Shown here: one piece after another, positions 3,574 through 61,520 of the stretch
Numbering within the stretch: the stretch's first letter is position 1
Layout of the letters: each line of letters opens with the position of its first letter
Assembly (NCBI RefSeq): GCF_021298855.1
Contig: NZ_JAJTHI010000006.1
Location: 1-64,000 of the forward strand
Source: Gemmatimonas sp.
GTDB taxonomy: Bacteria; Gemmatimonadota; Gemmatimonadetes; Gemmatimonadales; Gemmatimonadaceae
Length of the DNA: 64,000 nt
Direction of reading: 5' to 3'
Position numbers and translations under genes: made by a program
The notes under the pieces: model-generated
Told to the model about the DNA's origin: nothing
The model's input: the letters and a program-made list of their open reading frames with translations, nothing else
Databases searched by the model: none

Positions 3574-3578
3574 GCATT

Positions 3579-3592: not shown

Positions 3593-3607
3593 TATCATAT
3601 CTGCACG

Positions 3608-5025: not shown

Positions 5026-5082
5026 GCACCGCATCGACCGCCGCACCGCACTGCCTGCCCCGAACTCGCGACCCGGAACCGA

Positions 5083-5784
5083 TCAGTTCCGGAAATCGGG
5101 TTCGGGTGGCGCGTGTGCGGGGCGCATGTCGGCAATCTCCGTGGCTTCGGCCGCCAGCGCCTCCAGCGCCCGCTCGACATTGCTGCTCCACTGACTGAGC
5201 TGTTCGCGAAGCGTGGCGAGCTGCTGGCGGGCTGCCTGGGACTGGGCGGCCGCGTCATCGTGCATCACGGCAAGCTCCATCACCCGCTCCTGCATGACCT
5301 CGAGCTGGGCCACCGCTTCATCGCGTACCCGCTCGGCTCCTTCCAGCAGCTCCTGCACGCCGGCTCGCGTGTGCGTCAGCAGCGTGCACATGGCCCGCCA
5401 CGCGTCGCGCTCCAGCGTGAGCTGCTGCCGCGTGGCCGTGTCTTCGGCGAGACGCTCCCGCAAGCGATGCAGCCGTTGCACGAGCGAGCCGTTGCCATTC
5501 ACGCTCGTCCCGGGCCCCAGCAGCGCCAGCGCCGCGTGCAACTCGCGGTCGAGTTCCGCGTTGCGCCGCAGCTGCTCGTCACGCGCAGCGCGTGTTTCAT
5601 CGAGCGTGGCGAGCGCCTCCTGCAGGGCGCGCAACTCCACGGCAATGCGCCGCACGCCGCGCGCATCGCCTTCAGCCACCAACCAGCGCAGCGAGGCGAC
5701 GAATCCACGCTCGAGTGACAGATCGGGGGTCGACGATGCCGTCACGGCATCGACCGCGCGGGCGGGGGTGCGCGGTGTCGTCAC
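5083..5784 (-). CDS. Coiled-coil protein of unknown function
   Basis: A protein of about 233 residues dominated by heptad-rich helices, for example RRNAELDRELHAALALL, LRERLAEDTATRQQLTLERD and MQERVMELAVMHDDAAAQSQ. No signal peptide or membrane segment is seen. The GTG at 5784 avoids overlapping the upstream zinc-finger gene, which ends at 5813. The frame is open to an ATG at 5913, which would overlap that gene by about 100 bp and adds a low-complexity N-terminus. Probably cotranscribed with the CGNR gene. Function unknown. Confidence 0.6.
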   Translation of the reverse strand: MTTPRTPARAVDAVTASSTPDLSLERGFVASLRWLVAEGDARGVRRIAVELRALQEALATLDETRAARDEQLRRNAELDRELHAALALLGPGTSVNGNGSLVQRLHRLRERLAEDTATRQQLTLERDAWRAMCTLLTHTRAGVQELLEGAERVRDEAVAQLEVMQERVMELAVMHDDAAAQSQAARQQLATLREQLSQWSSNVERALEALAAEATEIADMRPAHAPPEPDFRN

Positions 5785-8209: not shown

Positions 8210-9493
8210 ATGGCCCACAGCACCCATGAGACGGCATCGGCGGCGAGTCCAACCGCCGCGCCCGCCACGACATACGTCCGCAAGGGTTTCGGCCTCAAGG
8301 CCGAAGTACAGGACACGCTCGCCGCCGACTATACCGGACACCTGGTGGACCTGCTGCGGGCGCGTGACTACGCGCTGACCGTTGGCGACACCACGATTCG
8401 TCTGGCGCGCGAGTTCGGCTTTTGCTACGGCGTGGAGCGCGCGGTCGACTACGCCTACCAGACGCGACTCAAGTTTCCGGACAAGCGCATCTTCCTGGCC
8501 GGCGAGATCATCCACAATCCGCATGTCAACGACAAACTGCGGGAGATGGGTGTGGTGTTTCTCTCGGTGAGCGGCAAGGGCTTCGACTACTCACCGGTGG
8601 CGGCGCAGGATGTGGTCATCCTGCCGGCTTTCGGCGTCACCATCCAGGACTTTCAAACGCTGCGGGACCTGGGGTGCGTCATCGTGGACACCACCTGCGG
8701 GTCCGTGCTGAACGTGTGGAAGCGGGTGGAGGTGTACGCGCGCGACGGCTACACCTCGCTCATTCACGGCAAGTACTACCACGAAGAGACGCGGGCGACG
8801 GCCTCGCAGGTGGAGAAGTACGCCAAAGGCCAGTATCTGGTGGTGCGCGACATGGCCGAGGCCGAGCTGGTGATGGACTACATCGAGGCGCGCGCGGGGC
8901 GGACGCCGCCTCGGCCCGTGCTGTCGCGGGAGGCCTTCCTCGAGAAGTTCTCGGTGGCGGCGTCCGACGGCTTCGATCCCGATGTGCACCTCGACCGCAT
9001 TGGCGTGGCCAACCAGACCACGATGCTGGCGCGTGAGTCGCTGGCCATTGGCGCGGCGGTGGGCGAGGCGATGGCCCGGGCGTACGGGGAGTCGCACAAG
9101 GCGGAGCATTTCCGCACGTTCGACACCATCTGCAGCGCCACGCAGGACCGCCAGGATGCGGTGCTGGAGCTGCTGCGCGAACCCATCGACCTCATGGTGG
9201 TGGTGGGCGGATACAACTCCAGCAATACGATTTCCCTGGCCGCATTGTGTGCGGAGCAGGTGCCCACGTATCACATTGCGGATCCCGATGAGATCGATGT
9301 GGCGTTGAACGCCGTGCGCTACCGGCGCATTGCCCGGCACCATGTGGAGGACACGATGCAGCCCTGGCTTGCCACGGCCGGCGCCTTGCGGGTGGGGATC
9401 ACGGCCGGCGCGAGCACACCCAACAACAAGATCGGCCAGGCGGTGGCCCGGGTCTTCGCCATTCGCGGGATCGATCCGGCCGACGTGACCTGA
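8210..9493 (+). CDS. ispH: 4-hydroxy-3-methylbut-2-enyl diphosphate reductase, long form
   Basis: A 427-residue IspH, the last enzyme of the MEP isoprenoid pathway. It reduces HMBPP to IPP and DMAPP with a [4Fe-4S] cluster. The three cluster cysteines sit in GFCYGVERAV, DTTCGSVLNVW and TICSATQDRQ. Substrate-binding signatures include EIIHNPHVND, HGKYYHEET and GGYNSSNT. The length and extended N-terminal 50 residues match the plant/cyanobacterial-type long IspH rather than the 310-residue E. coli form. It is monocistronic or leads into the dienelactone hydrolase 75 bp downstream. No other MEP gene is near. Confidence 0.93.
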   Translation: MAHSTHETASAASPTAAPATTYVRKGFGLKAEVQDTLAADYTGHLVDLLRARDYALTVGDTTIRLAREFGFCYGVERAVDYAYQTRLKFPDKRIFLAGEIIHNPHVNDKLREMGVVFLSVSGKGFDYSPVAAQDVVILPAFGVTIQDFQTLRDLGCVIVDTTCGSVLNVWKRVEVYARDGYTSLIHGKYYHEETRATASQVEKYAKGQYLVVRDMAEAELVMDYIEARAGRTPPRPVLSREAFLEKFSVAASDGFDPDVHLDRIGVANQTTMLARESLAIGAAVGEAMARAYGESHKAEHFRTFDTICSATQDRQDAVLELLREPIDLMVVVGGYNSSNTISLAALCAEQVPTYHIADPDEIDVALNAVRYRRIARHHVEDTMQPWLATAGALRVGITAGASTPNNKIGQAVARVFAIRGIDPADVT

Positions 9494-46889: not shown

Positions 46890-49800
46890 CTACCGGTAGT
46901 TGTGCCCCTTCACATGCTGTTCGCCGCCGCCGAGTTCGAGGGCGCGGACCTGCTTCGCGCGCACGTTCACTACCTGCTGCTCCACCTGCAGGGTGCCGCG
47001 CACGAGCAACAGGGGCGTCGTGGAGATGAGCAGCGCGTGCTGTTCGAAGCGGTCGGGGGTGATGACGATGTTGATCATCCCCGTTTCGTCTTCGAGGGTG
47101 AGAAAGACGAACCCCTTGGCGGTGCCGGGGCGCTGGCGGCAGATGACGAGACCGGCCACGGCTACGGGCTGCCCGTCCTTGCCGCTCTCGTGCGCGTCGC
47201 GCGCGGTGCGCACGCCGTTGAGGGCCAGATGCGCCCGCACGTGCACCATGGGGTGCCCGGTGAGCGACAGACCGGTCATGCGGAAGTCCGCTTCGGTGAG
47301 TTCCACCGGCGTATAGGCGGGCAGCGGCGCCCGCCGGGCAGTGGTGGGCGTGGCGCGTGGCGCGAGTGGCAATTCCGGTCTGCGCGAGACGGCCATGACC
47401 TCCCACAACGCGGCTCGGCGGCGGCGTTCGGGCGGTTCGTGCGCGAACAGGGTGTCGAAGGCACCGGCCTCGGCGAGGTGGCGCCATGCGGCCCGGTCGA
47501 GGGGCACTCGCTGTACGGCGTCCTCCACGCTGGTGAATGGCCCGTCGCGCAGCGCGGCTTCGAGACTGCGGCGGGCGCGCGCGCCGAGGCCACGCACGAG
47601 GCGGAGGCCGAGTCGGACCGCGACATCGCGTGGGGGGGGAGGAGTTTGGAGTTCCGAGTTGCAGTTGTTGGTTGTCAGTGCTCCCCATCTGACGGTACCG
47701 TCATGGGCGTACAGGACGCGGCCATCGGACAACTCGAGGCTGTGGTCCCACACACTTTTCGTGAGATCGAGGGGGAGCACCCGCACGCCGTGGCGTCTGG
47801 CATCCTCGATGAGCGTGCCGGGAGAGTAGAACCCCATGGGCTGTGCGTTGAGGATGGCGCACAGATACTCGGGCGCGTAGTAGTGCCGCAGCCACGCGGT
47901 GGCGTACACGATGAGCGCAAAACTGGCCGCGTGGCTCTCGGGAAAGCCGTAGTCGGCGAAGGCATTGATCTGGTTGTAAATGCGACGTGCAGTCTCCTCG
48001 GGAATGCCGTTGCGCTGCATGCCGGCAATGAGCTCTTCGCAAATGGCCGCCATGCGTTCGCGCGAGCGCTTGTGCCCCATGGCACGACGCAGCACATCGG
48101 CCTGCCCGGGGGTGAAGCCGGCGGCGGCAATGGCCACCTGCATTCCCTGCTCCTGGAAGAGCGGCACGCCGAGCGTGCGCCGCAACACGTGCTCCACACT
48201 GGGATGCGGATACGTGATGGGTTCCAGCCCCGCCCGCCGGCGCAGATACGGGTGCACCATCTCCCCCTGAATGGGGCCCGGCCGAATGAGCGCCACTTCC
48301 ACCACGAGATCGTAGAAACAGCGCGGCTTGAGACGCGGCAGCGTGTTCATCTGCGCACGGCTTTCGATCTGGAAGAGTCCCACCGTATCGGCGCGGCACA
48401 TGACGTCGTACACGGCGGCGTCGCTCATGTCGAGCTGCCCCAGATCCACGGTCACCCCGCGCGTGTGGCGGATGTACAGCAGACAGTCCTGCACGACCGT
48501 GAGCATGCCGAGCCCCAGCAGGTCGATTTTCACGAGCCCCACGGGATCGAGATCGTCCTTCTCCCATTGAATGACCGTGCGCCCGGGCATGGACGCCGGT
48601 TCGAGAGGTACCACGCCGCCGAGCGGCTCCTCGGTGAGGATGAACCCGCCCACGTGGATGGACCGGTGGCGGGGCAGGGCGTGCAGGCCGTGCACCACGT
48701 GCGCGAGCTGCCGCACGCGCGGATCGTCGGGATCGAGTCCGGCACGCTGCAGCAGTGCGCGCCCCGACGGGCCCTCACGAGTGGCGGTGGTGCGGTTGCG
48801 CCCCTCCACGAACTCGGCGTGGGTCTCACGCTCGGCGCCCTTGGCGAGCGGGCCCAGCTGCGCGTGTTCGTCGCTCGCGAGCTTCTGTTCGGTACGCAAG
48901 TCCATGAGCTGCTGCCAGGTGGCGTCGCGCTCGGTGATGCTCTTGGGGGGCGGGGGCTGGGTCGTGGACTGGGTCGGGGAGAAACGCGTGCCCGCAGCGC
49001 TCACCGAGGCGGTGGAGGGCACCGAGGACGACGTGCGCGTAGCGGCCACCGTGCGGGCGCGCTCACGGACAACGCGCGCCTTGGTCGTCGCTTCGGTGCC
49101 GCGGATCATGTGCTGGCCATGACGTGCAGCGTCACTGCTGTTAGCGTTCCCGGTACCCTCCACCGCCTCGGTGCGCTCTGTGTGATCGCGTTTCCCCCCG
49201 ACCTCAGCGCCGCCCTCGACCCCAGCCCCGTTACCGACCTCGTCCACGCGCAACGCCTCCGCGGTGCTCCTGGCACTGAAGCGATCACTCAAGGCCGCCA
49301 GCATGTCCGCCTGCTCGGTGCTGAACCCCAGGACGCGCGCGGCATCACGCACGGCACTGCGGCCGCGCCACGTGATCTGCTCGCACACCATGGCCGCGTG
49401 TTCGCGCCCGTAGCGGTTGTACACGTACTGCAGCACGCGCTCGCGGTCGCGGTGCGCAAAGTCGATGTCGATGTCGGGCGGTTCCTGGCGCTCTTCGCTG
49501 AGAAACCGTTCGAAGAGCAGCTCCATGCGAATGGGATCGACCGCCGTGATGCCGAGGCAGAAGCAGACGGCGGAGTTGGCCGCCGAGCCACGCCCCTGAC
49601 AGAGGATGCCCTCGCGCCTGGCGAAGCGCACGATGTCCCACACGATGAGGAAGAAGCCGGCCAGCTCGAGCTTGCGGATCATGCCCAATTCGTGGGCGAG
49701 TTGCCGGTCGTGCGTGGGCGTGCGGTTGTTGCCCCAGCGCTCGTGCGCCCCCTGCTCCACGAGCCGCGCGAGATATTCGTTGGCCGTGACTCCCGGCGGC

Positions 49801-50660
49801 AGTGGAAAGGCCGGCAAGCTGGGTTTGAGCTGCTCCAGCCGGAACGCGCAGCGCTCGGCGATGTCCACGGTGGCCCGCACCCCCTCTTCGGCCCCACGCC
49901 AGCGCCGGTAGATGCGCGCCACGGGCTTGAGCGCCCATTCGGCGTTGGGCTTGAGTCGTGTGCCCATGGTGTCGAGCGTACGCTCGTGTCGCAGGGTGTG
50001 CAGCACGTCGTGCACGATGCGCGCCGCAGGGTCGGCGTAATGCACGTTGTTGGTGACTACCCACGGCACGCCAAGTCGTGCGGCGAGCGGGCGCAGCTGC
50101 CCGACCAGCGCGCGCTCCTCGGGGAGCCGATGATCCCAGCACTCGATGGCCAGCTGGGTGCCGAAGACATCGCGCAGCTCACAGGCGGCGGTCCAGGCGA
50201 GGTCGGCGCGCCCCTCGGCGAGCAGTTGCGGCAGCCAGCCTCGGGGACAGCCGGTGAGTGCGGTGACCCCCTCCACGTGCCGGGTGACAAGTGCCCAGGG
50301 GACGCTGGGGCGCCCGCGCTCGCTGTCCATGCGGGCCCGGGTGACGAGCGTGGCAATGTTGTGGTAGCCGGTGTGCGATTCGGCGAGCAGCACCAGATGC
50401 GTACGTCGCTCGCCGCCACGTCCGGCGAGCTCAGGCATGCGTACCGTGAGCTCGGCCCCCAGGATGCCCGGGAGCGCCAGAGCCGCGCAGGCGGTGCCGA
50501 AGCGCACCACGCCCCCCATCTCGTCGTGATCGGTGAGGGCGAGGGCCCGGTAGCCCAGCGCCGCCGCCCGTTCGGCGAGCGTCTCAGGGAGAGAGGCGCC
50601 GTCGAGCAGCGAGAGAGCGGAATGACAGTGGAGTTCGGCGTACGCGGGACTGGCCATCAT
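46890..50660 (-). CDS. dnaE2: Error-prone DNA polymerase III alpha subunit DnaE2
   Basis: A 1256-residue C-family polymerase of the mutasome, acting in damage-induced mutagenic translesion synthesis with ImuA and ImuB. The N-terminal PHP domain starts YAELHCHSALSLLDGAS. The catalytic Asp pair is in PPDIDIDFAHRDRERV. Also visible are CQGRGSAANSAVCF, PRHRSIHVGGFILTEEPLGG, WEKDDLDPVGLVKIDLLGLGML and FQIESRAQMNTLPRLKP. An OB domain with VAGLVICRQRPGTAKGFVFLTLEDETG lies near the end. It is about 200 residues longer than usual, mainly from a disordered insert (about 48,760-49,270). ATG at 50660 or 50657; a CCGAA direct repeat sits immediately upstream. Confidence 0.93.
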   Translation of the reverse strand: MMASPAYAELHCHSALSLLDGASLPETLAERAAALGYRALALTDHDEMGGVVRFGTACAALALPGILGAELTVRMPELAGRGGERRTHLVLLAESHTGYHNIATLVTRARMDSERGRPSVPWALVTRHVEGVTALTGCPRGWLPQLLAEGRADLAWTAACELRDVFGTQLAIECWDHRLPEERALVGQLRPLAARLGVPWVVTNNVHYADPAARIVHDVLHTLRHERTLDTMGTRLKPNAEWALKPVARIYRRWRGAEEGVRATVDIAERCAFRLEQLKPSLPAFPLPPGVTANEYLARLVEQGAHERWGNNRTPTHDRQLAHELGMIRKLELAGFFLIVWDIVRFARREGILCQGRGSAANSAVCFCLGITAVDPIRMELLFERFLSEERQEPPDIDIDFAHRDRERVLQYVYNRYGREHAAMVCEQITWRGRSAVRDAARVLGFSTEQADMLAALSDRFSARSTAEALRVDEVGNGAGVEGGAEVGGKRDHTERTEAVEGTGNANSSDAARHGQHMIRGTEATTKARVVRERARTVAATRTSSSVPSTASVSAAGTRFSPTQSTTQPPPPKSITERDATWQQLMDLRTEQKLASDEHAQLGPLAKGAERETHAEFVEGRNRTTATREGPSGRALLQRAGLDPDDPRVRQLAHVVHGLHALPRHRSIHVGGFILTEEPLGGVVPLEPASMPGRTVIQWEKDDLDPVGLVKIDLLGLGMLTVVQDCLLYIRHTRGVTVDLGQLDMSDAAVYDVMCRADTVGLFQIESRAQMNTLPRLKPRCFYDLVVEVALIRPGPIQGEMVHPYLRRRAGLEPITYPHPSVEHVLRRTLGVPLFQEQGMQVAIAAAGFTPGQADVLRRAMGHKRSRERMAAICEELIAGMQRNGIPEETARRIYNQINAFADYGFPESHAASFALIVYATAWLRHYYAPEYLCAILNAQPMGFYSPGTLIEDARRHGVRVLPLDLTKSVWDHSLELSDGRVLYAHDGTVRWGALTTNNCNSELQTPPPPRDVAVRLGLRLVRGLGARARRSLEAALRDGPFTSVEDAVQRVPLDRAAWRHLAEAGAFDTLFAHEPPERRRRAALWEVMAVSRRPELPLAPRATPTTARRAPLPAYTPVELTEADFRMTGLSLTGHPMVHVRAHLALNGVRTARDAHESGKDGQPVAVAGLVICRQRPGTAKGFVFLTLEDETGMINIVITPDRFEQHALLISTTPLLLVRGTLQVEQQVVNVRAKQVRALELGGGEQHVKGHNYR

Positions 50661-50661
50661 A

Positions 50662-50677
50662 CCGAATATATGCCGAA
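50662..50677. promoter_or_regulatory. CCGAA-N6-CCGAA direct repeat at the dnaE2 start (candidate SOS operator)
   Basis: CCGAATATATGCCGAA, read on the gene strand as TTCGGCATATATTCGG, ends one or two bases before the dnaE2 start codon. Near-identical copies occur at 61322-61337 before imuA and at 61505-61520. Alphaproteobacterial LexA sites are also direct repeats with 11-bp period, which makes this a reasonable LexA-type box. Such a position implies a very short or absent leader. Confidence 0.6.
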
Positions 50678-50802: not shown

Positions 50803-51222
50803 ATGCCCAACCGCTACAAGCAGCAGATCGACGAGGTCCTCGAGGCCGCCGATCACATGACCACCGAGGAGCTGGACCGCCTGCCGTACGGCATGATCCA
50901 ACTCGATGCGAGCGGTCGCATTCTCAACTACAACGCGCTCGAATCTTCCCTGGCGTCGCTCAGCAAGGGAGACGCCATCGGCAAGCAGTTCTTCACCGAG
51001 ATTGCGCCGTGCACGCGCGTGCAGGAGTTCTACGGGCGCTTCAAGGAAGGGGTGATACGCGAAGCGCTCGACACGAGCTTCCGCTTCCACTTCGCCTTCA
51101 AGCAGAACCCGCGTGATGTGACGGTGCGGCTGCTGTACTCCAAGCGCTCGCGCACGGTGTGGGTGCTGATCTCCGATCACGACGGCAAGCCATTGCGCGC
51201 GCAGGCCACCGACGAGGAGTAA
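50803..51222 (+). CDS. pyp: Photoactive yellow protein-like PAS protein
   Basis: A 139-residue PAS protein closely resembling photoactive yellow protein. The stretch LPYGMIQLDASGRILNYN, the following ALES, then IGKQFFTEIAPCT and EFYGRFKEGV match PYP segment by segment. The chromophore Cys (Cys70 here, Cys69 in PYP), the Tyr (Tyr43/Tyr42) and the Glu (Glu47/Glu46) that hold the p-coumaric acid are conserved. The Thr50 and Arg52 equivalents are Ala51 and Leu53. This suggests a light- or redox-sensing PAS, perhaps with tuned chemistry. No genes for chromophore synthesis are in view. It is divergent from dnaE2, 142 bp apart. Confidence 0.8.
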   Translation: MPNRYKQQIDEVLEAADHMTTEELDRLPYGMIQLDASGRILNYNALESSLASLSKGDAIGKQFFTEIAPCTRVQEFYGRFKEGVIREALDTSFRFHFAFKQNPRDVTVRLLYSKRSRTVWVLISDHDGKPLRAQATDEE

Positions 51223-51243: not shown

Positions 51244-52488
51244 TCAGCGGCGCAGGATGGCGAGTGAATCCGGCGAGCCGTCGTTGGGTGCCGGCGTGAT
51301 CCCCAGCAGGCGGGCCAGCAGCGGGTACACGTGGACGTTGGCTACGGGGCCGATCACGCGCCCCGGCTGAATGTCGGGCCCCGCCGCCACGAACAGCGCG
51401 CCCATGCTGGGCAGGAAGTTGTCGTAGCCGTGCGTGCCGCCACGCGGCATACCGAGCCGCTGCAGGCGCTCGGTGCTGCTGATGGTCCAGCCTTCGTCGG
51501 CGAGCAGCACGATGGGCGTGATGCGCGGGTGAGCGCGATAGCGATAGCGCGCCGGCACGCTGTCCTTGAGAAACACCTGCGCGTGCGGTACTCGCTGCAA
51601 GGCGCGATACACATCGCGCAGCTTCCCCAGTGCCGGCGTGATGGCTGCTACCGGCATCCAGTCCACCACCTCCATGTCGTCGAGCGATACGTACTCGTCG
51701 AGGCGAACGACACGCGCGCTGTCGATCTCGGTCATACCATGATCAGAGACGATCACCAGGTTCACCTGCCCGGACAGCCCGCGGGTGGCGAGGCCATCCA
51801 CGAGCGCCCCCACGAGCGAATCCACGTGGGCGATGGCGCTGTCCACCTGCGGAGCGGACGGCCCATAGCTGTGTCCCACGTCGTCGGTGGTGCTGACGTA
51901 CATTGCAATGAAGCGCGGCGCCCGTTCCGGCGGCAGTGCGAGCCACTCCAGCACCTGCTGCACCCGCTGCGTGTTGGGAACGCGCCCGTCGTACGGCCGA
52001 TAGTAGGTGGGAAACCGACCATTGATGGCGTAGTCGCTCCCCGGCCAGAAGAACCCCGCCGTTCGCACGCCCTGTCGCTCGGCGGTGTTCCAGATGGGTT
52101 CACCGCCCCACCATCGCGGATCACGCGCCACATTGGTGTCGCCGATGGTGAACGTGGTGCCGATGCGTGCATCCCGCATGGTGTTGGCCACGATGCCGTG
52201 ATGCTCCGGATGCAGCCCCGTAACCAGCGTGTAGTGATTGGGGAACGTCTTGCTGGGAAACGCCGGCACCAGGCGCTCCGCGCGCACGCCGCGCGCGGCC
52301 AGGGCACGCAGGCGCACCGCTCCCGGCCGCGCGAGGTAGTCAGCGCGGAAGCCATCGAGGGACAGTAGCACGGTGGCACGGGCCGCGGGGGCAGCATGGG
52401 AGCCATGCGGCGCTCGCTGTGTCGCGCAGCCGCACAGTACAACCGCCCACTGCAAGACGCCACGGGCAAGGACGCGAGCTGACATCAT
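51244..52488 (-). CDS. Exported type I phosphodiesterase / nucleotide pyrophosphatase family protein
   Basis: A 414-residue ENPP-type enzyme. The N-terminal signal ends in LCGCATQ, a plausible lipobox. The alkaline-phosphatase superfamily metal ligands are visible in LLSLDGFRADYL (Asp), PSKTFPNHYTLVTG (Thr nucleophile), TTDDVGHSYGP (Asp, His) and IVSDHGMTEI (Asp, His). GTHGYDNFLPSMGALFVAAGP provides the last His. Likely cleaves phosphodiesters outside the cell for phosphate gain. It is divergent from the PstS/PstB chimera, sharing a region with an 11-bp direct repeat. Confidence 0.87.
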   Translation of the reverse strand: MMSARVLARGVLQWAVVLCGCATQRAPHGSHAAPAARATVLLSLDGFRADYLARPGAVRLRALAARGVRAERLVPAFPSKTFPNHYTLVTGLHPEHHGIVANTMRDARIGTTFTIGDTNVARDPRWWGGEPIWNTAERQGVRTAGFFWPGSDYAINGRFPTYYRPYDGRVPNTQRVQQVLEWLALPPERAPRFIAMYVSTTDDVGHSYGPSAPQVDSAIAHVDSLVGALVDGLATRGLSGQVNLVIVSDHGMTEIDSARVVRLDEYVSLDDMEVVDWMPVAAITPALGKLRDVYRALQRVPHAQVFLKDSVPARYRYRAHPRITPIVLLADEGWTISSTERLQRLGMPRGGTHGYDNFLPSMGALFVAAGPDIQPGRVIGPVANVHVYPLLARLLGITPAPNDGSPDSLAILRR

Positions 52489-52547
52489 CCGTAATCGTGT
52501 CAGGGAAAACCCGGTGTACACACGAGCACGGCGCGTCGTGCGCGCAC

Positions 52548-52608: not shown

Positions 52609-53517
52609 ATGCACCACTGGAAGCGGGATGGGCGCCGGCGCGGAACCCGATGGCGAGGATACGGCGTGCTGTTGCTGGTCGTACTCACCGGGGCAGCCGC
52701 CTGTGCGCGCGGCGACGGCGCCGATGTGGGTGCCGCCCCGGTGGTGCTGGCGGGTTCCACCTCGGTCCTTCCGTTCGCCGAGCGCTGGGCCGAGTTGTAC
52801 GGCGGCGGCAAGGTCACGGTGCAGGCGGGCGGGTCCACGGCGGGCATTCGCGCCGCGCGCGATGGCACGGCCGACATCGGCATGAGTTCGCGTGCGCTGC
52901 TGCGGTCGATCAACCGCATGAACGATCTCGTACCGGGCGTGCGGGTGTCCGGGCAGATCACGGTGAAGGGGGTGGAAGCGTACGGTGCCGGCATGTCCAC
53001 CGATGTGCTGCGGCGCCACGTGGGCATGGTGCTTCAGCGCCCCAACCCGTTTCCGCTGTCGGTACTCGATAACCTCGCGTACGGGCCGCGGCTCGACGGC
53101 CGACTGTCCGGTGGCAAGGCGCGTGAACTGGCCGAGTCGCTGCTCACCGAGGTCGGGCTGTGGGACGCGTTGCGCGACGGGCTCGACCGGTCGGCGCTGC
53201 GGCTGTCGCCGGAGCAGCAGCAACGCCTGTGCATTGCGCGGGCGCTGGCGACCCGGCCGGCGGTGCTGCTCATGGACGAACCATGCTCCGCGCTCGATCC
53301 CGAAGCCACGGCGCGCGTGGAGGCGCTCATGGTGCGCCTGGCGACGCAGCATGCGGTGGTGGTGGTGACGCACAACATGCAGCAGGCGCAGCGGGTGGCG
53401 TCGCACTGCGGGTTCATGCTGATGGGCGAGCTGGTGGAGTTCGGCGCCACCCTGCAGCTGTTTGCCGCCGCGCGGGACGGTCGTACCGCCGATTACGTGG
53501 CGGGTCGCTTCGGGTGA
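52609..53517 (+). CDS. PstS fragment fused in frame to a Walker-A-less PstB
   Basis: A 302-residue chimera. Residues 1-35 are a signal sequence with possible lipobox (AAAC). Residues 45-95 match the first lobe of the phosphate-binding protein PstS (VVLAGSTSVLPFAERWAELY, AGGSTAGIRAARDGTADIGMS). From about 97 the sequence is PstB starting after its Walker A: LLRSINRMNDLVPG, Q-loop GMVLQRPNPFPLSVLDNLAYGPRL, signature-region LSPEQQQRLCIARAL (SGG changed to SPE), Walker B/D-loop LLMDEPCSALDP, His loop VTHNMQQA, and the PstB C-terminus LVEFGATLQLF...RTADYVAGRFG. The frame is continuous. pstC, pstA and the rest of pstS are absent. It is either a deletion relic kept open or a repurposed protein. Confidence 0.82.
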   Translation: MHHWKRDGRRRGTRWRGYGVLLLVVLTGAAACARGDGADVGAAPVVLAGSTSVLPFAERWAELYGGGKVTVQAGGSTAGIRAARDGTADIGMSSRALLRSINRMNDLVPGVRVSGQITVKGVEAYGAGMSTDVLRRHVGMVLQRPNPFPLSVLDNLAYGPRLDGRLSGGKARELAESLLTEVGLWDALRDGLDRSALRLSPEQQQRLCIARALATRPAVLLMDEPCSALDPEATARVEALMVRLATQHAVVVVTHNMQQAQRVASHCGFMLMGELVEFGATLQLFAAARDGRTADYVAGRFG

Positions 53518-53527
53518 CGCCACGCGG

Positions 53528-54583
53528 TCAGGTGGGCGTTACGGAGCGCCAGTAGGCCAGCGCGATTCCCGCCACATAGCCCACCACCAGCAGGATGCTG
53601 CCCGGCTCGCGCGCCGCCGCCCGACGGGAGCGCAGCACCAGCGTGCCGAGGGCGATCGTCATGAGCACCACCGCCGCCAGTGCGGTGAGGATGTGATCGG
53701 CCGATGCGACGGCGAACATGGGCTGGGGGTGGAACGGGTCGAGGATGGCGAAGATCGTCATGTTGATGGCGTTGCTGCCGAACAGATTGCCCACCGCCAG
53801 ATCGTAGGCGCGCAGGCGCACGGCCGCCATGGAGGTCACGAGCTCCGGCAACGACGTGGACAGCCCCACGAGCCAGGTGCCCATGAAGGTGTGTCCCAGG
53901 CCGCTGACCACCGCGAGCCCCTCCGCCGCCGTGGCGAACTGCGGCGCCACAACGACGATCACCTGCGCGGCGCCAAGAAACGACCAGATCGCGCGACGCA
54001 ACGACATGGGGTGCGCATGGCTGGAAGGTGCTCCCTCGGCGCGACCCTCGTGGCTGCCGGTCGACTCGGCGCCGCTCATCTCGGTCACCTCACCGGCGGT
54101 CTGCGTGACCTGACTCACGCGAAACGCCAGGCTGGAGGTGACGGCATAGGTGGCAACAAGCAGCAACGACCAGGTGCCAATTCCGGCCACGCTGGAGCCC
54201 ACGCGCGTCACGAGTCCCATGGCCGCGAGAATCGTCATGATGATGGCGAGGCAGGCGTACAGCGCATGATCGAAGGCGGCGCGGCGGAACATGTCCACCC
54301 CGGCCGGCGCGAGACTGATGATGGCCAGGATGAGCATGTTGGCCATGCTGCTGCCCATGAGGTCCCCAACGGCGAGATCGATGGCGCCCAGCCGCACGGC
54401 CGCAATATCGGTGACGATTTCGGGGAGAGAGGTGGCCAGCGCGAGAAACACCGACCCCACCCAGGCGCCACCCAGCCGGGTGCGCGCCGCCACGACGTCG
54501 CCGGCGCGCGCCAGCACCGTGCCGGCGGCGATGACGATGACGGCGGCCACCAGGAAGCGTACAAGCAGTGCGCCGAGCGTCAC
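53528..54583 (-). CDS. Ca2+/cation antiporter (CaCA superfamily)
   Basis: A 351-residue membrane antiporter. The two alpha-repeats that form the ion path are ATSLPEIVTDIAAVRLGAIDLAVGDLMGSSMANM and STSLPELVTSMAAVRLRAYDLAVGNLFGSNAINM, with the conserved Glu in each (given here as two motifs of the same design). About ten helices are predicted. A hydrophilic His/Glu-rich loop (TEMSGAESTGSHEGRAEGA) separates the halves. It exchanges Ca2+ or Na+ for H+. Its ATG overlaps the stress-protein stop (ATGA). Confidence 0.88.
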   Translation of the reverse strand: MTLGALLVRFLVAAVIVIAAGTVLARAGDVVAARTRLGGAWVGSVFLALATSLPEIVTDIAAVRLGAIDLAVGDLMGSSMANMLILAIISLAPAGVDMFRRAAFDHALYACLAIIMTILAAMGLVTRVGSSVAGIGTWSLLLVATYAVTSSLAFRVSQVTQTAGEVTEMSGAESTGSHEGRAEGAPSSHAHPMSLRRAIWSFLGAAQVIVVVAPQFATAAEGLAVVSGLGHTFMGTWLVGLSTSLPELVTSMAAVRLRAYDLAVGNLFGSNAINMTIFAILDPFHPQPMFAVASADHILTALAAVVLMTIALGTLVLRSRRAAAREPGSILLVVGYVAGIALAYWRSVTPT

Positions 54584-55521
54584 GCCCCGCCCGCCGCGGT
54601 TGCGGGCATGCGATGCAGCAGTACCGGGTGACTGGTGGTGCGCAGCACCTTGTCGGCAACGCTCCCCAGCAGAAGGCGCCCCACGGGGCCGCGCCCGCGC
54701 GTGGCGAGCGCGATGAGGTCCACGTCGAGCGAGTCAGCGCAATCCCCGATGGCCCGCTGGGGATCGAACTCCTCGGGCGCGCAGTGCGTCGCCGCAACCC
54801 CCTCGCGTTGCAGCGCGCCTTCGACGCCGGTGAGGTATCTCGTCACGAGCGTACGCTGTTCGGCCAGATCACGCTCGTACTCGGCGCCGGTGGCCACGGC
54901 GCGCAGCATCGGGTGCAGTGGCGAGACCGCGCGCATGAGCACGCACTCGACGCTGTCCGCCAGGAGCGGCTTGAGTGGCGTGAGAACACTCTCGCTGTCC
55001 GGCGAGCCATCGAGGGGCACCAGGACCCGGCGCAACTGCCACTCGGGCAGTGTCTGCGGCGGCGGGGCGTCGGCCGGGCGGACCGCCACAACGGGTACCG
55101 GCGAGAGGCGAATGAGCGCGTCGGCGACCGATCCCAGCCAGGCCCGCGACGGGCCGCCACGCCCGTGAGTAGTCACGACGAGCATGGCGGCGTTGACGGC
55201 GGTGGCACAGCCGACGAGTGCGTCGGCGATGGGGCCGGTGAGGATGCGGGTGTGCACGACCGGCGCGTTGGTGAGCATGGCAATGCGTGCGGCGGCGCCA
55301 TCGAGGTAGCGCTGGACCGCCGTGCGCCACTCCGCCGCGTGCTCGTCCTCGAGACGGGAATCGGCAAATGGGGCACCGCCGGTGGCGTAGCGCCACGGGT
55401 CACTATCGAGGACCGAGACGAGCAGGAGGTCCGCGCGCAATCGCCGAGCCAGCCCCACCGCCACGGGGAGCGAGGCATCGGCAAACGATGAGCCATCAAG
55501 AGCGACGAGCAGGGTCGGCAT
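54580..55521 (-). CDS. Tandem-domain universal stress protein
   Basis: A 313-residue protein with two UspA domains. The first begins TLLVALDGSSFADASLPVAV and ends TTHGRGGPSRAWLGSVADALI. The second begins VLVPLDGSPDSESVLTP and ends ATRGRGPVGRLLLGSVADKVL; both keep the G-x2-G-x9 loop, so ATP binding is expected. Its start overlaps the Ca2+-ATPase stop by 26 bp and its stop overlaps the antiporter start, placing it in the middle of a translationally coupled ion-transport operon. Confidence 0.88.
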   Translation of the reverse strand: MPTLLVALDGSSFADASLPVAVGLARRLRADLLLVSVLDSDPWRYATGGAPFADSRLEDEHAAEWRTAVQRYLDGAAARIAMLTNAPVVHTRILTGPIADALVGCATAVNAAMLVVTTHGRGGPSRAWLGSVADALIRLSPVPVVAVRPADAPPPQTLPEWQLRRVLVPLDGSPDSESVLTPLKPLLADSVECVLMRAVSPLHPMLRAVATGAEYERDLAEQRTLVTRYLTGVEGALQREGVAATHCAPEEFDPQRAIGDCADSLDVDLIALATRGRGPVGRLLLGSVADKVLRTTSHPVLLHRMPATAAGGA

Positions 55522-58165
55522 ACAATCCTCGGCAACGGACCAGGAACTTCTCGAACTCCACGGCAACGAACACCAGTGATGCCATGACCACGCAGGCGGC
55601 CAGCTCTCCGGCCGTGAGCGGGACCGTGTGAAACAGGCGATTCATGGCCGGCACGTAAATGGTGGCGAGTTGGAGCAGCAGGGTGGCGACCACGGCCATC
55701 AGCAGGGCGGGGTTGCTCGTCACTCCCAGACGAAAGAGCGACTGGCGCTCCGACCGGATGGCCATGATATGCGTGAGTTGGGAAAGCGTGAGCACCGTGA
55801 AGGTCATGGTCTGCCAGTGCGCGTTGCCTGTGTGCCTGGCCCAGGCGAGGGTGCCGAGCGCCAGCGCCGCCATGAGCAGCCCCACCCACAGGGCATGCTG
55901 CCACAGACCATGGGCGAAGATGCCTTCCCGCGGCGGACGCGGCGGGCGCTGCATCACGTCGGGCTCCGCCCGCTCGGCGGCAAGCGCCAGTCCCGGCAAT
56001 CCGTCGGTGACGAGGTTCATCCACAGGATGTGAATGGGCAGCAACGGGAGTGGCAACCCCACAAAGGGCGCGAGGAAGAGCGTCCAGATCTCGCCCGCGT
56101 TGGTGGAGAGCACGAAGCGCACGAAGCGGCGGATGTTGTCGTAGATGCGCCGTCCCTCACGCACCGCCTGCACGATCGTGGCGAAGTTGTCGTCGAGCAG
56201 CACCATGTGCGAGGCCTCACGCGCGACATCGGTGCCGCCGCGACCCATGGCAATGCCGATGTCGGCATGGTTGAGCGCCGGTGCGTCGTTCACGCCGTCG
56301 CCGGTCATGGCGGCAAACTCGCCGCGTGCCTGCAACGCGCGCACAATGCGCAGCTTGTCTTCCGGCGCGACGCGCGCGTACACGCGCGTGTGCTCGACCT
56401 GTTCGCGCAGCGCCTCGTCGGTGAGCTCCCCCAGGGCGCGGCCGGTGAGCACCGGCGCGTCGGCGTCGGTCATGATGCCAAGGCGCAGGGCAATGGCGCG
56501 CGCGGTGGCCGGGTGATCGCCGGTAATCATCACCACACGAATCCCTGCCGTATGGCAGGTACGCACGGCAGCGGCGGCCTCCTGGCGTGGCGGGTCGATC
56601 AGGCCCACGAGCGCCAGGAGCAGTTGGTGCTCCTCGAGTGCGTCCGGTGGATCGCCCGGTGCCCTATGATCGCTGTTGGTGGCCACGGCCAGCACCCGTA
56701 GCCCCGCGGCCGCCATCTGCTCGGCCTGCTGCAGCACGGCCGCGCGATCGATGGGCACGAGCGCGCCGTCGCGCAGCATGCGGTCGCAGTGGGGCACTAC
56801 CCGCTCGGGGGCACCCTTCGTGCAGGCCAGGCGCTGCGCGTGTCCGGCCGCGGCGTGTACCGTTGTCATGCGCGCGCGCGCGGAGGTGAACGGCACCTCG
56901 GCGATACGCGGCCAGCGCTGCTCGAGTGACGGCTTGTGCGCGTCGTGTGCCGTCGCCCAGCGCACGAGCGCGGTTTCCGTGGGATCACCCACCAGTGCAT
57001 CGTCTCCCGCGCCCTGCACGTCGGTGCACAGGGTGGCAACACCAGCGATGGAGAGCGCTGCGTGCGGGAGCGGGGTACGCACGTGGGATGCATCGAGCGC
57101 GGCTCCGCACGGCGCCTGCGCCACATCCACGCGCATGCGGTTTTCGGTGAGCGTGCCGGTCTTGTCCGTGCAGATGTAGGTGACCGACCCCAGCGTTTCC
57201 ACTGCGGGGAGGCGCCGAATGAGCGCCTGCTGGCGAACCATGCGGCGGGCTCCCAGCGCCAGCGACACGGTAATGACGGCGGGCAGCGCTTCGGGGATGG
57301 CCGCCACCGCGAGGCTGAGGGCGGTCATGAACATGAGTCCCAGCGGTTCGCCGCGCAGCAGGCCAGTCACGAAGATGGCGGCGCAGAGGCCAATCACGAG
57401 CAGGGCGAGCCGGCGGCCGAAGGCGGCGAGGCGGAGCTGCAGCGGTGAGCGCACCGCGGTGTCGTCCTGCAGCATGGCGGCGATGCGGCCAAGTTCGGTG
57501 CGCATGCCGGTGGCCACGACCAGGCCGGTGCCACGGCCCGCCGCGACACTCGTGCCCTTGTAGAGCATGCCGTGGCGGTCGCCGAGCGGGGCGTCGGCAG
57601 CGCTGGTGGGGGCTGTGTCCTTTTCCACCGGCACCGACTCGCCGGTGAGGGCCGCTTCCTCCACGCTGAGGCGCGCGCTGTCGATGAGGCGGACATCGGC
57701 GGGAACCACATTGCCCGCTTCCAGCAGCACGAGGTCGCCCGGGACCAGGTCGTGCGAGGGGACGGTGCGCTCCTCCCCCGCGCGCCGCACCCGTGCACTC
57801 GGCGCGGCCATGGCGCCGAGGGCCGCGAGTGCCTGCTCGGCGCGGTATTCCTGCACGAAGCCGAGGAGCGCATTGAGGATGACGATGGCGACGATGGCCA
57901 CCGTATCCTCCGGGTCGCCGACCACGGCGGCAATGATGGCGGCACCGATGAGCACCAGCACCATGACGTCGGCGAACTGCGCGAGCAGCATGCGCAGGGG
58001 CCCACGTCGGGTGGCGGCGCGCAGGTTGTTGCTGCCGTACTCCTGCCGGCGGCGCGCCAGCTCGTCGGTGGTGAGCCCGCGGGCAGGGTCGACGCCCAGC
58101 AGGTTGGCGACGGCAGCGGGTGTCATGGTGTGCCACGGCCGTTCGAGTGGGCCGGGTGGGGTCAT
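55496..58165 (-). CDS. Ca2+-type P-type ATPase (PMCA/SERCA class)
   Basis: An 889-residue cation pump. The phosphorylation motif ICTDKTGTLTENRM, the hinge TGDGVNDAPALNHADIGIAMG, the actuator LTGESVPVEKD and the transmembrane IPEALPAVITVSLALG (PEALP in place of PEGLP) identify a P2-type pump. The M6 region (VLSTNAGEIWTLFLAPF) has the N-A-G-E acidic signature for Ca2+ binding. The N-terminal cation ATPase domain is present. It exports Ca2+ (or Mn2+) at the expense of ATP. Likely first gene of the three-gene operon with the stress protein and the antiporter. Confidence 0.92.
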   Translation of the reverse strand: MTPPGPLERPWHTMTPAAVANLLGVDPARGLTTDELARRRQEYGSNNLRAATRRGPLRMLLAQFADVMVLVLIGAAIIAAVVGDPEDTVAIVAIVILNALLGFVQEYRAEQALAALGAMAAPSARVRRAGEERTVPSHDLVPGDLVLLEAGNVVPADVRLIDSARLSVEEAALTGESVPVEKDTAPTSAADAPLGDRHGMLYKGTSVAAGRGTGLVVATGMRTELGRIAAMLQDDTAVRSPLQLRLAAFGRRLALLVIGLCAAIFVTGLLRGEPLGLMFMTALSLAVAAIPEALPAVITVSLALGARRMVRQQALIRRLPAVETLGSVTYICTDKTGTLTENRMRVDVAQAPCGAALDASHVRTPLPHAALSIAGVATLCTDVQGAGDDALVGDPTETALVRWATAHDAHKPSLEQRWPRIAEVPFTSARARMTTVHAAAGHAQRLACTKGAPERVVPHCDRMLRDGALVPIDRAAVLQQAEQMAAAGLRVLAVATNSDHRAPGDPPDALEEHQLLLALVGLIDPPRQEAAAAVRTCHTAGIRVVMITGDHPATARAIALRLGIMTDADAPVLTGRALGELTDEALREQVEHTRVYARVAPEDKLRIVRALQARGEFAAMTGDGVNDAPALNHADIGIAMGRGGTDVAREASHMVLLDDNFATIVQAVREGRRIYDNIRRFVRFVLSTNAGEIWTLFLAPFVGLPLPLLPIHILWMNLVTDGLPGLALAAERAEPDVMQRPPRPPREGIFAHGLWQHALWVGLLMAALALGTLAWARHTGNAHWQTMTFTVLTLSQLTHIMAIRSERQSLFRLGVTSNPALLMAVVATLLLQLATIYVPAMNRLFHTVPLTAGELAACVVMASLVFVAVEFEKFLVRCRGLYADPARRS

Positions 58166-58210: not shown

Positions 58211-60541
58211 TCAGTCGTACCACCCCTGCAGGTACCAGCCGGTCTCGGTGTGGTACACCAGCAAATCACCGTCGGTGGGGGCGGTGCAGCGCCAGTAGTC
58301 GCGGGCGTAGCCATCGCCGCGCCACCAGTCGCCGCTGAGCCGTTCCGGGCCGTGGGCGGCGGCGAGGTCGATGCGGCGGCCGCGCCACCAGACGGCGCCG
58401 GGTATGCCGTGCGGGGCTTCGATGTCGACGGGGTCGGGGGCGGGGAGGAGGCGGAGGACGGCGGCGGGCGCCGGGGCGTTGGCCTGGGCCGCCGCGGGGG
58501 CAGCGGGCAGGGGCGCGGCGGCGAGGGTGAGGGCGTCGGCGGGCGCCCAGCGACCGGCTTCCTCGGGGCGGTGCGTGTCTCGGGCCTCGGGGTGCACCAC
58601 GACGTCGCCGCGGTTGTCGGGGTCGAGCACGGCGCGCAGGCGGGCGAACACCGCGTCGGCATTCATGGCCGCATCGCGCCACGAGGGAATGAGCAGGTCG
58701 CCCTGGTCGGCGGCCAGCGGCGCCGTGGCGGGGATGCTCAGGGTCACCCCGATGACCGGCGCGGGGATGGGCCAGCGCTCGAGCAGGGCACGGCACTGAT
58801 CGAAGAGCGGCTCGAGCCGCGCGAGGGGGCGCGCGGGGCGCACTTCCCGGGTGATGGTGCGCTGGGGGATGCCGAGCACTGACGCGGCCGTGCGCGCGGC
58901 TGACGCCGCAGGAAGAGGGGGCAGGTGGCGGGGAGCCGGGAGCAGGGGGCAGGGGGGATCGGCATCGGCCTGCGTCGTGCCACCTGCTCCCCGCTTCCGG
59001 TCTCCTGCTCGCTGCTTCCTGGTGTGGTCGGAGTCATCACTCGTCTCCGGCACGTGCACATGCCCGCGCAGTTCACTGCCGATCTCCTCGATGGGGTACT
59101 GCCGCCCGGCATCGAGGACGAGCGTGATGGCCACGGCGGCCACGGCGCGACCGTCGTGCACGCACTCCTGCAGGAGCCGTTGCAGCTGGGCGCGCAGTAC
59201 GAAGAGAATGGGCTCGGCGCTTTCCACGGCCCCGGGCAACTCCACGCTCGCGCTGCGCGCGGCGTCGACACGCACGAGCCCCGGACGCCGCGGGTCGTCG
59301 CCACGCGCCAGCCGCCAGGCCGTGAGCCCCTCGGCCCCCCAGCGCTGCTCGACCTCCCCGGCGTCGAGGGCGGCGAGCGCCCCCACGGTGGTGAGGCCGA
59401 GCATGCGCAGGGCGTCGCGCACCTCGTCGCTCATGGGTACGAGCCCGAGCGGGGCGGGGGCGAGATAGCGGGCGCAGCCGCCGCGGGGAATCCGCGTGAT
59501 TTCCGCAGGGAGGGGGCAGGAGGCAGGAGGCAGGGGGCCGGGAGCAGGGGGGAACGACGCAGAGGACAACGAGGTCTGCTCCCTGCTGCCTGCCTCCTGC
59601 CCCCTGCTCCCTGTTCCGGAGGGTCGTTCGGCACCGGAGTGCCGGCGCACCGGCGCCCACGTGGCCGCGCGCGCCGCCACACAGCTGTCGGCAATGGCCA
59701 CACGCGCGTCGGGGTGCCACTGGCGCGCGATGGCGAGCAGGGTGCGCGCGAGTTGCTCCTCGCCGCCCAGCGCCTCGAAGCCGGTGGCCCCCACCCACCA
59801 TAACCCCGGGGCGCTGCTGGCCGGGGTGACCTGAGGGCTGGCCGCCAGCAGCGCCGTGGTCGCGGTGAGCATGGCGTCGGCCACAGCGTGATCGTCCCAC
59901 GGCCGCACCTCGAGCGCCGCACAGCGCGCTCTGGCGTCGGCAATGGTCATCCCCGCCCGCACACCGGCCCGTCCTGCTGCCAGCGAGACCACACGCAGGC
60001 GGGTGCCGTGGCTGAGCGCCCGTGGCAGTTCATCCCAATGCGGAAGGGGAGGCGGGGGCGGAGGTGGGATCGGGGCGCTCTTTCCGCGGGGCCGACTGCC
60101 CGCCGCCGCTGCCGAGGAGCGCCCCGGTGCGTTCCCGCGCCAACTCGCGGCGTCCCCGTCGGCCGAAGCCCGACTCGGCGGCGCGCCGTCGCCCGCGGGA
60201 TGTGGCCCAGTCGCGGGTGCGCCGGTCGAGCTCCCGGTCGAGCTCCCGGTTGAGCCCGAGCCGGTCGTTGCCCTCGGCGTGGTCGTTCCCGAGGCGGTCA
60301 CCGGGTTCATCGAGTCCAGCGGCAAGTCGAGCTGGATGTCCCGGAAGGTCAGTTCCGTACAGGTCGTGGCTGCCAACGCCGAGTCCGCCCCAGGTGACGG
60401 GGTGTTCGCTGCGCCGGGCGTCGTCGCCACCGTCGTCACTGTTGCCGCGGGCGGCCCAGGGATGACGCGCGCTGCGCGCCACCCCGCGCCGATCGGGAAT
60501 CTCGGGATGCGTACACAGGCGACGCGCCAGGATGACGACAC
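58211..60541 (-). CDS. imuB: ImuB, inactive Y-family polymerase partner of the mutasome
   Basis: A 776-residue ImuB-type protein, a scaffold joining the beta clamp, ImuA and DnaE2. The N-terminus WRVACVRIPRFPIG is the first palm strand. It is followed by about 140 residues of inserted low-complexity sequence, then LRVVSLAAGRAGVRAGMTIADARARC, the real continuation. The end has the typical ImuB C-terminus: GAVWWRGRRIDLAAAHGPERLSGDWW, then YARDYWRCTAPTDGDLLVYHTETGWYLQGWYD. A QLDLPL motif (residues 70-75, bases 60317-60334) resembles a clamp-binding peptide. Two palindromic G-rich repeats (58911-59024, 59506-59624) are translated. The first 512 bases overlap imuA out of frame. Confidence 0.85.
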   Translation of the reverse strand: MSSSWRVACVRIPRFPIGAGWRAARVIPGPPAATVTTVATTPGAANTPSPGADSALAATTCTELTFRDIQLDLPLDSMNPVTASGTTTPRATTGSGSTGSSTGSSTGAPATGPHPAGDGAPPSRASADGDAASWRGNAPGRSSAAAAGSRPRGKSAPIPPPPPPPLPHWDELPRALSHGTRLRVVSLAAGRAGVRAGMTIADARARCAALEVRPWDDHAVADAMLTATTALLAASPQVTPASSAPGLWWVGATGFEALGGEEQLARTLLAIARQWHPDARVAIADSCVAARAATWAPVRRHSGAERPSGTGSRGQEAGSREQTSLSSASFPPAPGPLPPASCPLPAEITRIPRGGCARYLAPAPLGLVPMSDEVRDALRMLGLTTVGALAALDAGEVEQRWGAEGLTAWRLARGDDPRRPGLVRVDAARSASVELPGAVESAEPILFVLRAQLQRLLQECVHDGRAVAAVAITLVLDAGRQYPIEEIGSELRGHVHVPETSDDSDHTRKQRAGDRKRGAGGTTQADADPPCPLLPAPRHLPPLPAASAARTAASVLGIPQRTITREVRPARPLARLEPLFDQCRALLERWPIPAPVIGVTLSIPATAPLAADQGDLLIPSWRDAAMNADAVFARLRAVLDPDNRGDVVVHPEARDTHRPEEAGRWAPADALTLAAAPLPAAPAAAQANAPAPAAVLRLLPAPDPVDIEAPHGIPGAVWWRGRRIDLAAAHGPERLSGDWWRGDGYARDYWRCTAPTDGDLLVYHTETGWYLQGWYD
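58911..59024. repeat. Translated palindromic G-rich repeat (copy 1)
   Basis: A left arm rich in GGGGGCAGG/GGGAGC/GCAGGGGG (58911-58957) is followed by a short loop and a right arm (58980-59024) which is roughly its reverse complement, containing CCACCTGCTCCCCGCTTCC and TCTCCTGCTCGCTGCTTCC. It lies inside imuB and is translated as an Arg/Gly then Pro/Leu-rich segment. Copies 2 and 3 share the GGGAGCAGG/GGCAGGAGG core. Confidence 0.55.
59506..59624. repeat. Translated palindromic G-rich repeat (copy 2)
   Basis: Left arm GGGAGGGGGCAGGAGGCAGG followed by AGGCAGGGGGCCGGGAGCAGG, loop of about 40 bases, and right arm CTGCTCCCTGCTGCCTGCC followed by TCCTGCCCCCTGCTCCCTG, an approximate inverted repeat. 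It sits in imuB and is read as PPAPGPLPPASCPLP, sharing LPPASC with the peptide read from copy 3 in imuA. Confidence 0.65.
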
Positions 60542-61313
60542 GGGGGACCTCGATGGAGGGAGAGCGGGTTCCGAGGCTGGCTCCTTTCTCGATCGTGAGC
60601 AGGGAGCAGGAGGCGGGGGGCAGGGAGCCGGGGGGCGGTGTCAGGGCGCGGGAAGCCGAGGGACGCCCTGCCGGAGCGCGCATGGATGGCGGAGGGCTCA
60701 GTGCCACCCGCACGCGCACCGTGCCGGCGAGCCGCTGGACCCGTGCTTCCCCGGGAGTGGCATGCTCCAGCACCACACAGGCGGCATCGCGTTCACGGGC
60801 GAGCTGTGCAAGGCGCACGCCGTGCACCCGGGAGAGGGGCGGCGCCCCGTCGAGCACGACCAGCCCGAAGACCCCGCTGCGCAGCAGCAGATCGGTGGTC
60901 CAGGCCGCCCGTTTGGCCTCGGGGAGGCGGATGACGACGAACCGCTCCCCCAGGTCGGCCCACGGGGCCGGGGCCAAGGTGCGGCCGGCATCGATCCAGG
61001 CCACCCAGGCCCCGCTCCCCAGCACCTGCGCCACCACCTGCCGCAGCAGCGCCGTCTTGCCCACCGCCAGCGGGCCGGTGAGCTCCGTGATACGCCCCCG
61101 GGGAATCCCGCCCCCCAACGCCCGGTCGAGTGCCGGCACCCCCGTGGACCAGGGCGCACCGGCCCGACGGCTACCCGCCACCACCCGGTGCACGTCGGCC
61201 TGCAGCGCCGGGGAAATGGTGGCCGGGAGCGCCTGCCCAGCCGATTCGGCCCCGACAGGTGGGGACTCCGCGTGAGGACGCAGCGCAGCGGACGACGGGG
61301 AGGTGCGTGACAT
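60030..61313 (-). CDS. imuA: ImuA, RecA-like mutasome protein
   Basis: A 427-residue ImuA-type protein. The RecA-like core (about 45-220) has Walker A GPLAVGKTALLRQV, a Walker B-like GLVVLDGAPPL, and the family segments LDRALGGGIPRGRITELTG and FVVIRLPEAKRAAWTTDLLLRSG. The last 170 residues are low-complexity Arg/Gly-rich sequence read in a frame that overlaps imuB; the natural end was probably near VVILARRLCTHPE. ATG at 61313 with a CCGAA direct repeat 8 bp upstream. It and ImuB bring DnaE2 to damaged DNA. Confidence 0.82.
   Translation of the reverse strand: MSRTSPSSAALRPHAESPPVGAESAGQALPATISPALQADVHRVVAGSRRAGAPWSTGVPALDRALGGGIPRGRITELTGPLAVGKTALLRQVVAQVLGSGAWVAWIDAGRTLAPAPWADLGERFVVIRLPEAKRAAWTTDLLLRSGVFGLVVLDGAPPLSRVHGVRLAQLARERDAACVVLEHATPGEARVQRLAGTVRVRVALSPPPSMRAPAGRPSASRALTPPPGSLPPASCSLLTIEKGASLGTRSPSIEVPRVVILARRLCTHPEIPDRRGVARSARHPWAARGNSDDGGDDARRSEHPVTWGGLGVGSHDLYGTDLPGHPARLAAGLDEPGDRLGNDHAEGNDRLGLNRELDRELDRRTRDWATSRGRRRAAESGFGRRGRRELARERTGALLGSGGGQSAPRKERPDPTSAPASPSALG
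60225..60262. repeat. 12-bp tandem repeat in the imuA/imuB overlap
   Basis: About three copies of a 12-base unit GGTCGAGCTCCC (the last altered to GGTTGAGCCCGA) lie here. They encode the Ser-Thr-Gly repeats (GSSTGSSTG) of the ImuB insert and the Arg-Glu-Leu-Asp repeats (RELDRELD) of the ImuA tail, so the expansion is visible in both frames. Confidence 0.6.
60597..60640. repeat. Translated palindromic G-rich repeat (copy 3, half)
   Basis: GAGCAGGGAGCAGGAGGCGG followed by GGGGCAGGGAGCCGG is a single arm of the same repeat family. It is read in imuA on the minus strand as PPGSLPPASCSLL, sharing the peptide LPPASC with copy 2 in imuB. Confidence 0.55.
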
Positions 61314-61321: not shown

Positions 61322-61337
61322 CCGAACAAATGCCGAA
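61322..61337. promoter_or_regulatory. CCGAA-N6-CCGAA direct repeat before imuA (candidate SOS operator)
   Basis: CCGAACAAATGCCGAA lies 8 bp upstream of the imuA ATG on the gene's control side. It matches the dnaE2 copy in 13 of 16 bases, including both CCGAA repeats and the flanking TA. Shared sites on two mutasome genes imply common regulation. Confidence 0.6.
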
Positions 61338-61504: not shown

Positions 61505-61520
61505 CCGAATATACTCCGAA
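61505..61520. promoter_or_regulatory. CCGAA-N6-CCGAA direct repeat before the pterin dehydratase gene
   Basis: CCGAATATACTCCGAA matches the dnaE2 copy in 14 of 16 bases. It lies 35 bp before the ATG at 61556 and overlaps the expected start region of a rightward promoter whose -10 could be TATATT (61490-61495). It is also about 190 bp upstream of imuA and could act there. Confidence 0.55.

Follow-up and report, generated by a model that had tools for sequence, protein, structure and literature searches.

The window, a stretch of 64,000 nucleotides from a Gemmatimonas genome (4.09 Mb in 91 contigs, 99.5% complete), carries a gene for a photoactive yellow protein (PYP) homologue beside dnaE2, with imuA and imuB further along the same stretch (Table 1). 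The pyp reading frame is present as the first-pass annotation had described it, and it is divergent from dnaE2, whose start at 50660 (MMASPAYAELHCHS) leaves the 142 bp to the pyp ATG that had been reported between the two genes. The dnaE2 product scores 1238 bits with NF004225 against a cut-off of 939, identifying it as a DnaE2-type polymerase, and it contains, at about residues 475-635, a low-complexity stretch that is variable.

Table 1. Genes and predicted operator sites around pyp, in order of position in the window.
Feature	Position	Strand	Remarks
dnaE2 (imuC), error-prone DNA polymerase	46890..50660	-	NF004225; Pfam PHP, DNA_pol3_alpha, finger, HHH_6, OB
TTCGGCATATATTCGG, probable LexA box	50662..50677	-	directly before dnaE2 start, in dnaE2-pyp intergenic region
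pyp (PYP1)	50803..51222	+	photoactive yellow protein homologue, 139 aa, Cys70/Tyr43/Glu47
Type I phosphodiesterase/nucleotide pyrophosphatase	51244..52500	-	PF01663 3e-96
Block: PstS-PstB chimera (+), Na/Ca exchanger (-), UspA (-), P-type ATPase (-)	52609..58165	mixed	
imuB, Y-family-like polymerase, IMS domain	58211..60541	-	PF00817 E 1.2e-5; pyp/dnaE2 neighbour in relatives
imuA, RecA-like	60030..61313	-	PF00154 E 7.7e-13 over residues 54-156
TTCGGCATTTGTTCGG, probable LexA box	61322..61337	-	8 bp before imuA start
TTCGGAGTATATTCGG, further box	61505..61520	-	between imuA and pterin-carbinolamine dehydratase gene

The phosphodiesterase gene is convergent with pyp, a neighbourhood kept in close relatives only. 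The block at 52609-58165 separates these two genes from imuB, and its makeup depends on the species, being unlike even in the sister genome G015, whose PYP is 97% identical to that of the window. At one end of the block, a PstS-like N-terminal part is fused in frame to a PstB-like ATPase C-terminal part (52609-53517, plus strand, 302 aa), as if pstC and pstA along with parts of pstS- and pstB-like genes had been deleted; this chimera is not at the corresponding place in G015. In its C-terminal third, the imuA reading frame runs over imuB and is perhaps out of frame there. G-rich repeats of the GGAGCAGG type lie inside the imuB and imuA frames (58931-60634), with 8 occurrences in the window where 0.05 would be expected.

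The photoactive yellow protein and its pocket

The pyp product matches TIGR02373, the photoactive yellow protein model, with an E value of 2.4e-30, and at 105 bits it misses the 143-bit cut-off of the model in the profile search. We did not take this cut-off as defining because TIGR02373 reportedly finds only some 20% of PYP homologues (PMC9664959). Crystallised PYPs align with residues 18-123 of the product free of gaps (E 1e-20 to 1e-23), and among solved structures its close relatives are PYPs only. An AlphaFold2 model made from 23 orthologues (pLDDT 75) found, as its best 40 matches in the PDB, PYPs or PYP-derived proteins (TM 0.78 by target). In a tree in which long branches leave the inner order loose, all PYPs formed a group apart, with 99/99 support, from seven ordinary PAS domains that the host genome also encodes, and grouping with ordinary PAS proteins was not seen. 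Judged by alignment, phylogeny and predicted fold, the window pyp is a gene for a genuine single-domain PYP and not for an ordinary PAS protein, bearing out the homology that had been proposed for it.

Like the PYP of H. halophila and the Ppr-PYP of R. centenum, the window protein has the same length, the PAS fold, Tyr42, Glu46 and Cys69, the other pocket residues and Trp119. It differs in about 15 additional C-terminal residues and, along with nearly all of its orthologues, in having Gln in place of Met100. The alignment to solved PYPs places Tyr43, Glu47 and Cys70 on the chromophore residues Tyr42, Glu46 and Cys69, APCT motif included, as the first-pass annotation had read them. That annotation had also pointed to Ala and Leu (here Ala51 and Leu53) at the Thr50 and Arg52 positions and expected an altered pocket. 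The substitutions are there; the oddity is not, as the consensus over 984 PYPs is itself Ser47, Leu49, Ala50 and Leu52 (PMC12826048), identical to the window PYP at each position. Of the remaining pocket residues listed in that survey, Ile31, Phe62, Ala67, Pro68 and Phe96 are identical and Val66 is replaced by Ile. Since absorption at 435-465 nm is known for four PYPs that have Ala50 (PMC12826048), the same range is predicted for the window PYP. Judging by Met100 mutants of PYP, Gln at position 100 would make its recovery slow.

Orthologues of the window protein, a type termed here PYP1 as distinct from the PYP2 and PYP3 types of relatives, were gathered at the genus, family and phylum level. 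None of the 37 orthologue rows, which span 63-100% identity, departs from Cys69 or Glu46; position 42 is Tyr except for Phe in three, and the Met100 position is Gln in nearly all. PYP2, a second PYP-like paralogue in Gemmatimonas with 38-45% identity (L032-L038, L081-L082, L084-L090), has lost the chromophore Cys69 to Ser or Gly in every copy seen, with some copies gaining a Cys at 67 or 42. The pocket kept in PYP1 against this loss in PYP2 is the best evidence from sequence that PYP1 may have been retained as a pigment-binding protein. We infer pigment binding and a photocycle for the window PYP, which is quite likely photoactive when p-coumarate is available.

The pyp-dnaE2 junction and the probable LexA boxes

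Of the 37 genomes that carry an orthologue, 36 have pyp and dnaE2 in divergent orientation. The two genes are less than 200 bp apart in 32 genomes and have 3.3-4.4 kb inserted between them in four; the exception, G270, has PYP1 with dnaE2 absent within 8 kb. Among the 31 loci with long flanks, dnaE2 lies near pyp in 30 and ImuB in 12, and other gene families reach at most 8 each. The pyp-dnaE2 junction persists from genus to genus as the outer neighbours on both sides change, and the identities of PYP and dnaE2 correlate (r 0.81). At the same place in G021 (L031) is a PYP only 66% identical to that of the window, next to a dnaE2 of 88% identity; this PYP could be a replaced or a fast-evolving copy.

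The cassette genes themselves adjoin pyp in other relatives, with imuB directly beyond a reversed pyp, then dnaE2 (L060, L074, L075, L077, L137), and imuA beyond imuB where the flank extends far enough. In relatives that lack pyp (L205, L211, L212, L215, L216, L219), imuA-imuB-dnaE2 are contiguous. The gene order thus shows that in several Gemmatimonadaceae genera pyp lies reversed between imuB and dnaE2 of an otherwise contiguous cassette. Much of the block of the window is also present in the phototrophic Gemmatimonas genomes G001 and G022 without a PYP1 gene, which suggests that the gene was lost there. With its RecA-like ImuA, Y-family-like ImuB, DnaE2 and predicted LexA-type operator, the cassette resembles the imuA-imuB-dnaE2 SOS cassette of Caulobacter, mycobacteria, Bacteroidetes and others; it differs in being split by a reversed photoreceptor gene, in a dnaE2 with its own box and, in the window species, in the further genes between imuB and pyp.

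A genus-wide conserved ACCGAA-N5-ACCGAA in the dnaE2-pyp intergenic region reads TTCGG-N6-TTCGG on the opposite strand. This pattern occurs 3 times in the window, where shuffling leads one to expect 0.11, and has 13 exact matches genome-wide against 4 for a reversed-pattern control. Two copies precede lexA by 31 and 68 bp when its start is set at MPLTKRQREIL (G000 C22:16622-16674), and the relatives without pyp have box pairs before imuA. As a repeat common to the regions upstream of lexA, imuA and dnaE2, TTCGG-N6-TTCGG is probably the LexA operator, and LexA repression of imuA and dnaE2 through these boxes is strongly suggested. The alphaproteobacterial LexA box, GTTC-N7-GTTC (PMC9578287, PMC8565304), is likewise a direct repeat with an 11-bp period upstream of lexA and mutagenesis genes, whereas the half-site here is TTCGG. 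No LexA motif for Gemmatimonadota is described in the papers searched. The intergenic box abuts dnaE2 and is 125 bp from the pyp ATG; no TTCGG-N6-TTCGG lies close to the pyp start within the window, and a box at the dnaE2-pyp spot was not detected in several other genera. In the same intergenic region of the sister genome G015, a second TTCGG-N6-TTCGG is found some 90 bp ahead of pyp (L220 13182-13197).

PYP in Gemmatimonadota has already been catalogued, and the reported neighbours of pyp are kinases, c-di-GMP enzymes, chemoreceptors and chromophore genes (PMC9664959, PMC12826048). The window pyp, by contrast, is in a DNA-damage mutagenesis locus and away from genes of these kinds. The papers searched contain no link of PYP to imuB, dnaE2 or DNA repair; only one of them mentions PYP and ImuB or DnaE2 at all, and in separate places. 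A divergent partner could easily be missed because one survey counted the genes of pyp operons (PMC12826048) and the other had few Gemmatimonadota genomes (PMC9664959). By these comparisons, the window PYP is a new member of a known family, and its setting within an SOS mutagenesis locus is conserved and, by the papers searched, new.

Light sensing and damage tolerance

The host genome encodes the reaction-centre proteins L and M (pufLM). A clear reaction centre is found in 34 of the 298 genomes of the phylum and in 17 of the 21 PYP1 carriers. Fisher tests of PYP1 against reaction-centre genes gave 5e-15 by genome and 1.2e-4 by genus, values that overstate the association as neither genomes nor genera are independent; in a comparison confined to the genus, it is weak (Fisher 0.06) and at most suggestive. 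Four PYP1 carriers of one family (f6) are without reaction-centre genes. The five PYP carriers of another family (f5) are all phototrophic, with a PYP of a different type. Phototrophs of another Gemmatimonadota family have a PYP with an N-terminal CxxC...CxxC of zinc-ribbon-like look (L130 8361-8936, L132 7361-7870, L131 2147-2653).

One explanation for the locus, which we advance tentatively, is that a functional tie between light sensing and damage tolerance has kept a genuine PYP in its conserved place within imuA-imuB-dnaE2. In this view the p-coumaroyl chromophore would be thioester-linked to Cys70, kept in place by Tyr43 and Glu47 and isomerised by blue light, and the change in shape of the PYP that follows would carry a signal to a partner. 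We know of no signalling partner for the single-domain PYPs. Retention of pyp at the locus would then reflect joint use of light sensing and damage tolerance in phototrophic, light-exposed bacteria, which may photosensitise themselves via bacteriochlorophyll, and pyp and dnaE2 may be expressed from one divergent control region. The tie between light and the mutasome is the weakest part of this explanation, plausible and still somewhat short of probable. The first-pass annotation had suggested a possible link of this kind from the pyp-dnaE2 pair; the entire imuA-imuB-dnaE2 locus, the LexA-type boxes and the association with phototrophy strengthen its case, all of them as genomic context. Counting against it are the lack of a tyrosine ammonia-lyase, the locus of G270, the four carriers that have no reaction-centre genes, and a LexA-type box that adjoins dnaE2 and not pyp and goes undetected at this spot in several other genera.

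About equal weight goes to the alternative that PYP1 is a photoreceptor but only a positional passenger, having entered the imuA-imuB-dnaE2 locus in one ancient insertion and descended vertically while serving another light response, for example the regulation of phototrophy, pigments or motility. The co-divergence of PYP and dnaE2 weakens the functional tie because a single insertion with vertical inheritance explains the position, and the tie is weakened again because a divergent promoter region may resist insertion for reasons of its own. A passenger would also be consistent with the co-occurrence of PYP1 and reaction-centre genes, though less so with the four carriers that are not phototrophs. 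The insertions of 3-4 kb tolerated in four genomes, the placement of PYP1 elsewhere in G270 and the company of known PYPs, which go with chemotaxis, c-di-GMP and kinases and not with repair (PMC9664959, PMC12826048), point in the same direction. It is harder to reconcile with a pyp-dnaE2 junction that stays while both outer sides are rearranged between genera. That this junction outlasts the other junctions of the locus counts slightly in favour of the functional tie.

The stronger claim that a blue-light PYP controls or tunes SOS mutagenesis, coupling light to the expression or activity of the ImuA-ImuB-DnaE2 mutasome, we consider unlikely. If it were true, daylight would join DNA damage in setting the damage-tolerance machinery. 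A conserved pyp in a predicted LexA-controlled cassette offers a concrete candidate, open to experimental test, for the control of error-prone repair by light.

Chromophore supply

Less likely again is that PYP1 is no light sensor in this organism and, without a tyrosine ammonia-lyase (TAL), is an apoprotein or holds another ligand, acting as a redox, ligand or protein-binding PAS domain. Such a reading would fit the gene content of the host, in which, as a difference from the known PYP family, no TAL was found in the 99.5% complete genome. No TAL or ligase gene adjoins pyp, in agreement with the first-pass annotation, and the genome search that it had proposed returned a single aromatic ammonia-lyase. 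This enzyme is judged to be HutH because it scores as a histidine ammonia-lyase above the curated (HAL equivalog) cut-off, carries LQRNLVRSHAAGVG (the RSHAAG signature) and is encoded next to a urocanase gene; on the same grounds, HutH as a concealed TAL was rejected. Nearly all relatives with PYP1 likewise have one such lyase. Among the 12 AMP-binding matches in the host genome, none is named a 4-coumarate (p-coumarate) CoA ligase by a curated model. With no TAL found, import of p-coumarate or another synthesis would therefore be needed; HutH may have promiscuous activity, and generic acyl-CoA synthetases could substitute for the p-coumarate CoA ligase. Against a role other than light sensing, the chromophore-contact residues of PYP1 are all strongly conserved, unlike those of the Cys-less PYP2, and a TAL gene is present in only 5% of the 113 pyp operons surveyed, for which p-coumarate uptake has been proposed (PMC12826048).

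That the gene order is an assembly or chance artefact of a draft genome in 91 contigs is ruled out by the matching pyp-dnaE2 order in 36 genomes, the single-contig G028 and G029 included.

G028 also encodes a second lyase, with the signature LVYHLCSG, about 4 kb from PYP3; given its His-Leu signature, this lyase is presumably a TAL. At this locus (L083 of G028, 3012-5510 and 8623-8997), and also in L129 and L128, PYP3 is nearer to H. halophila PYP, with Met100 present, and its genes adjoin genes of no recognised kind.
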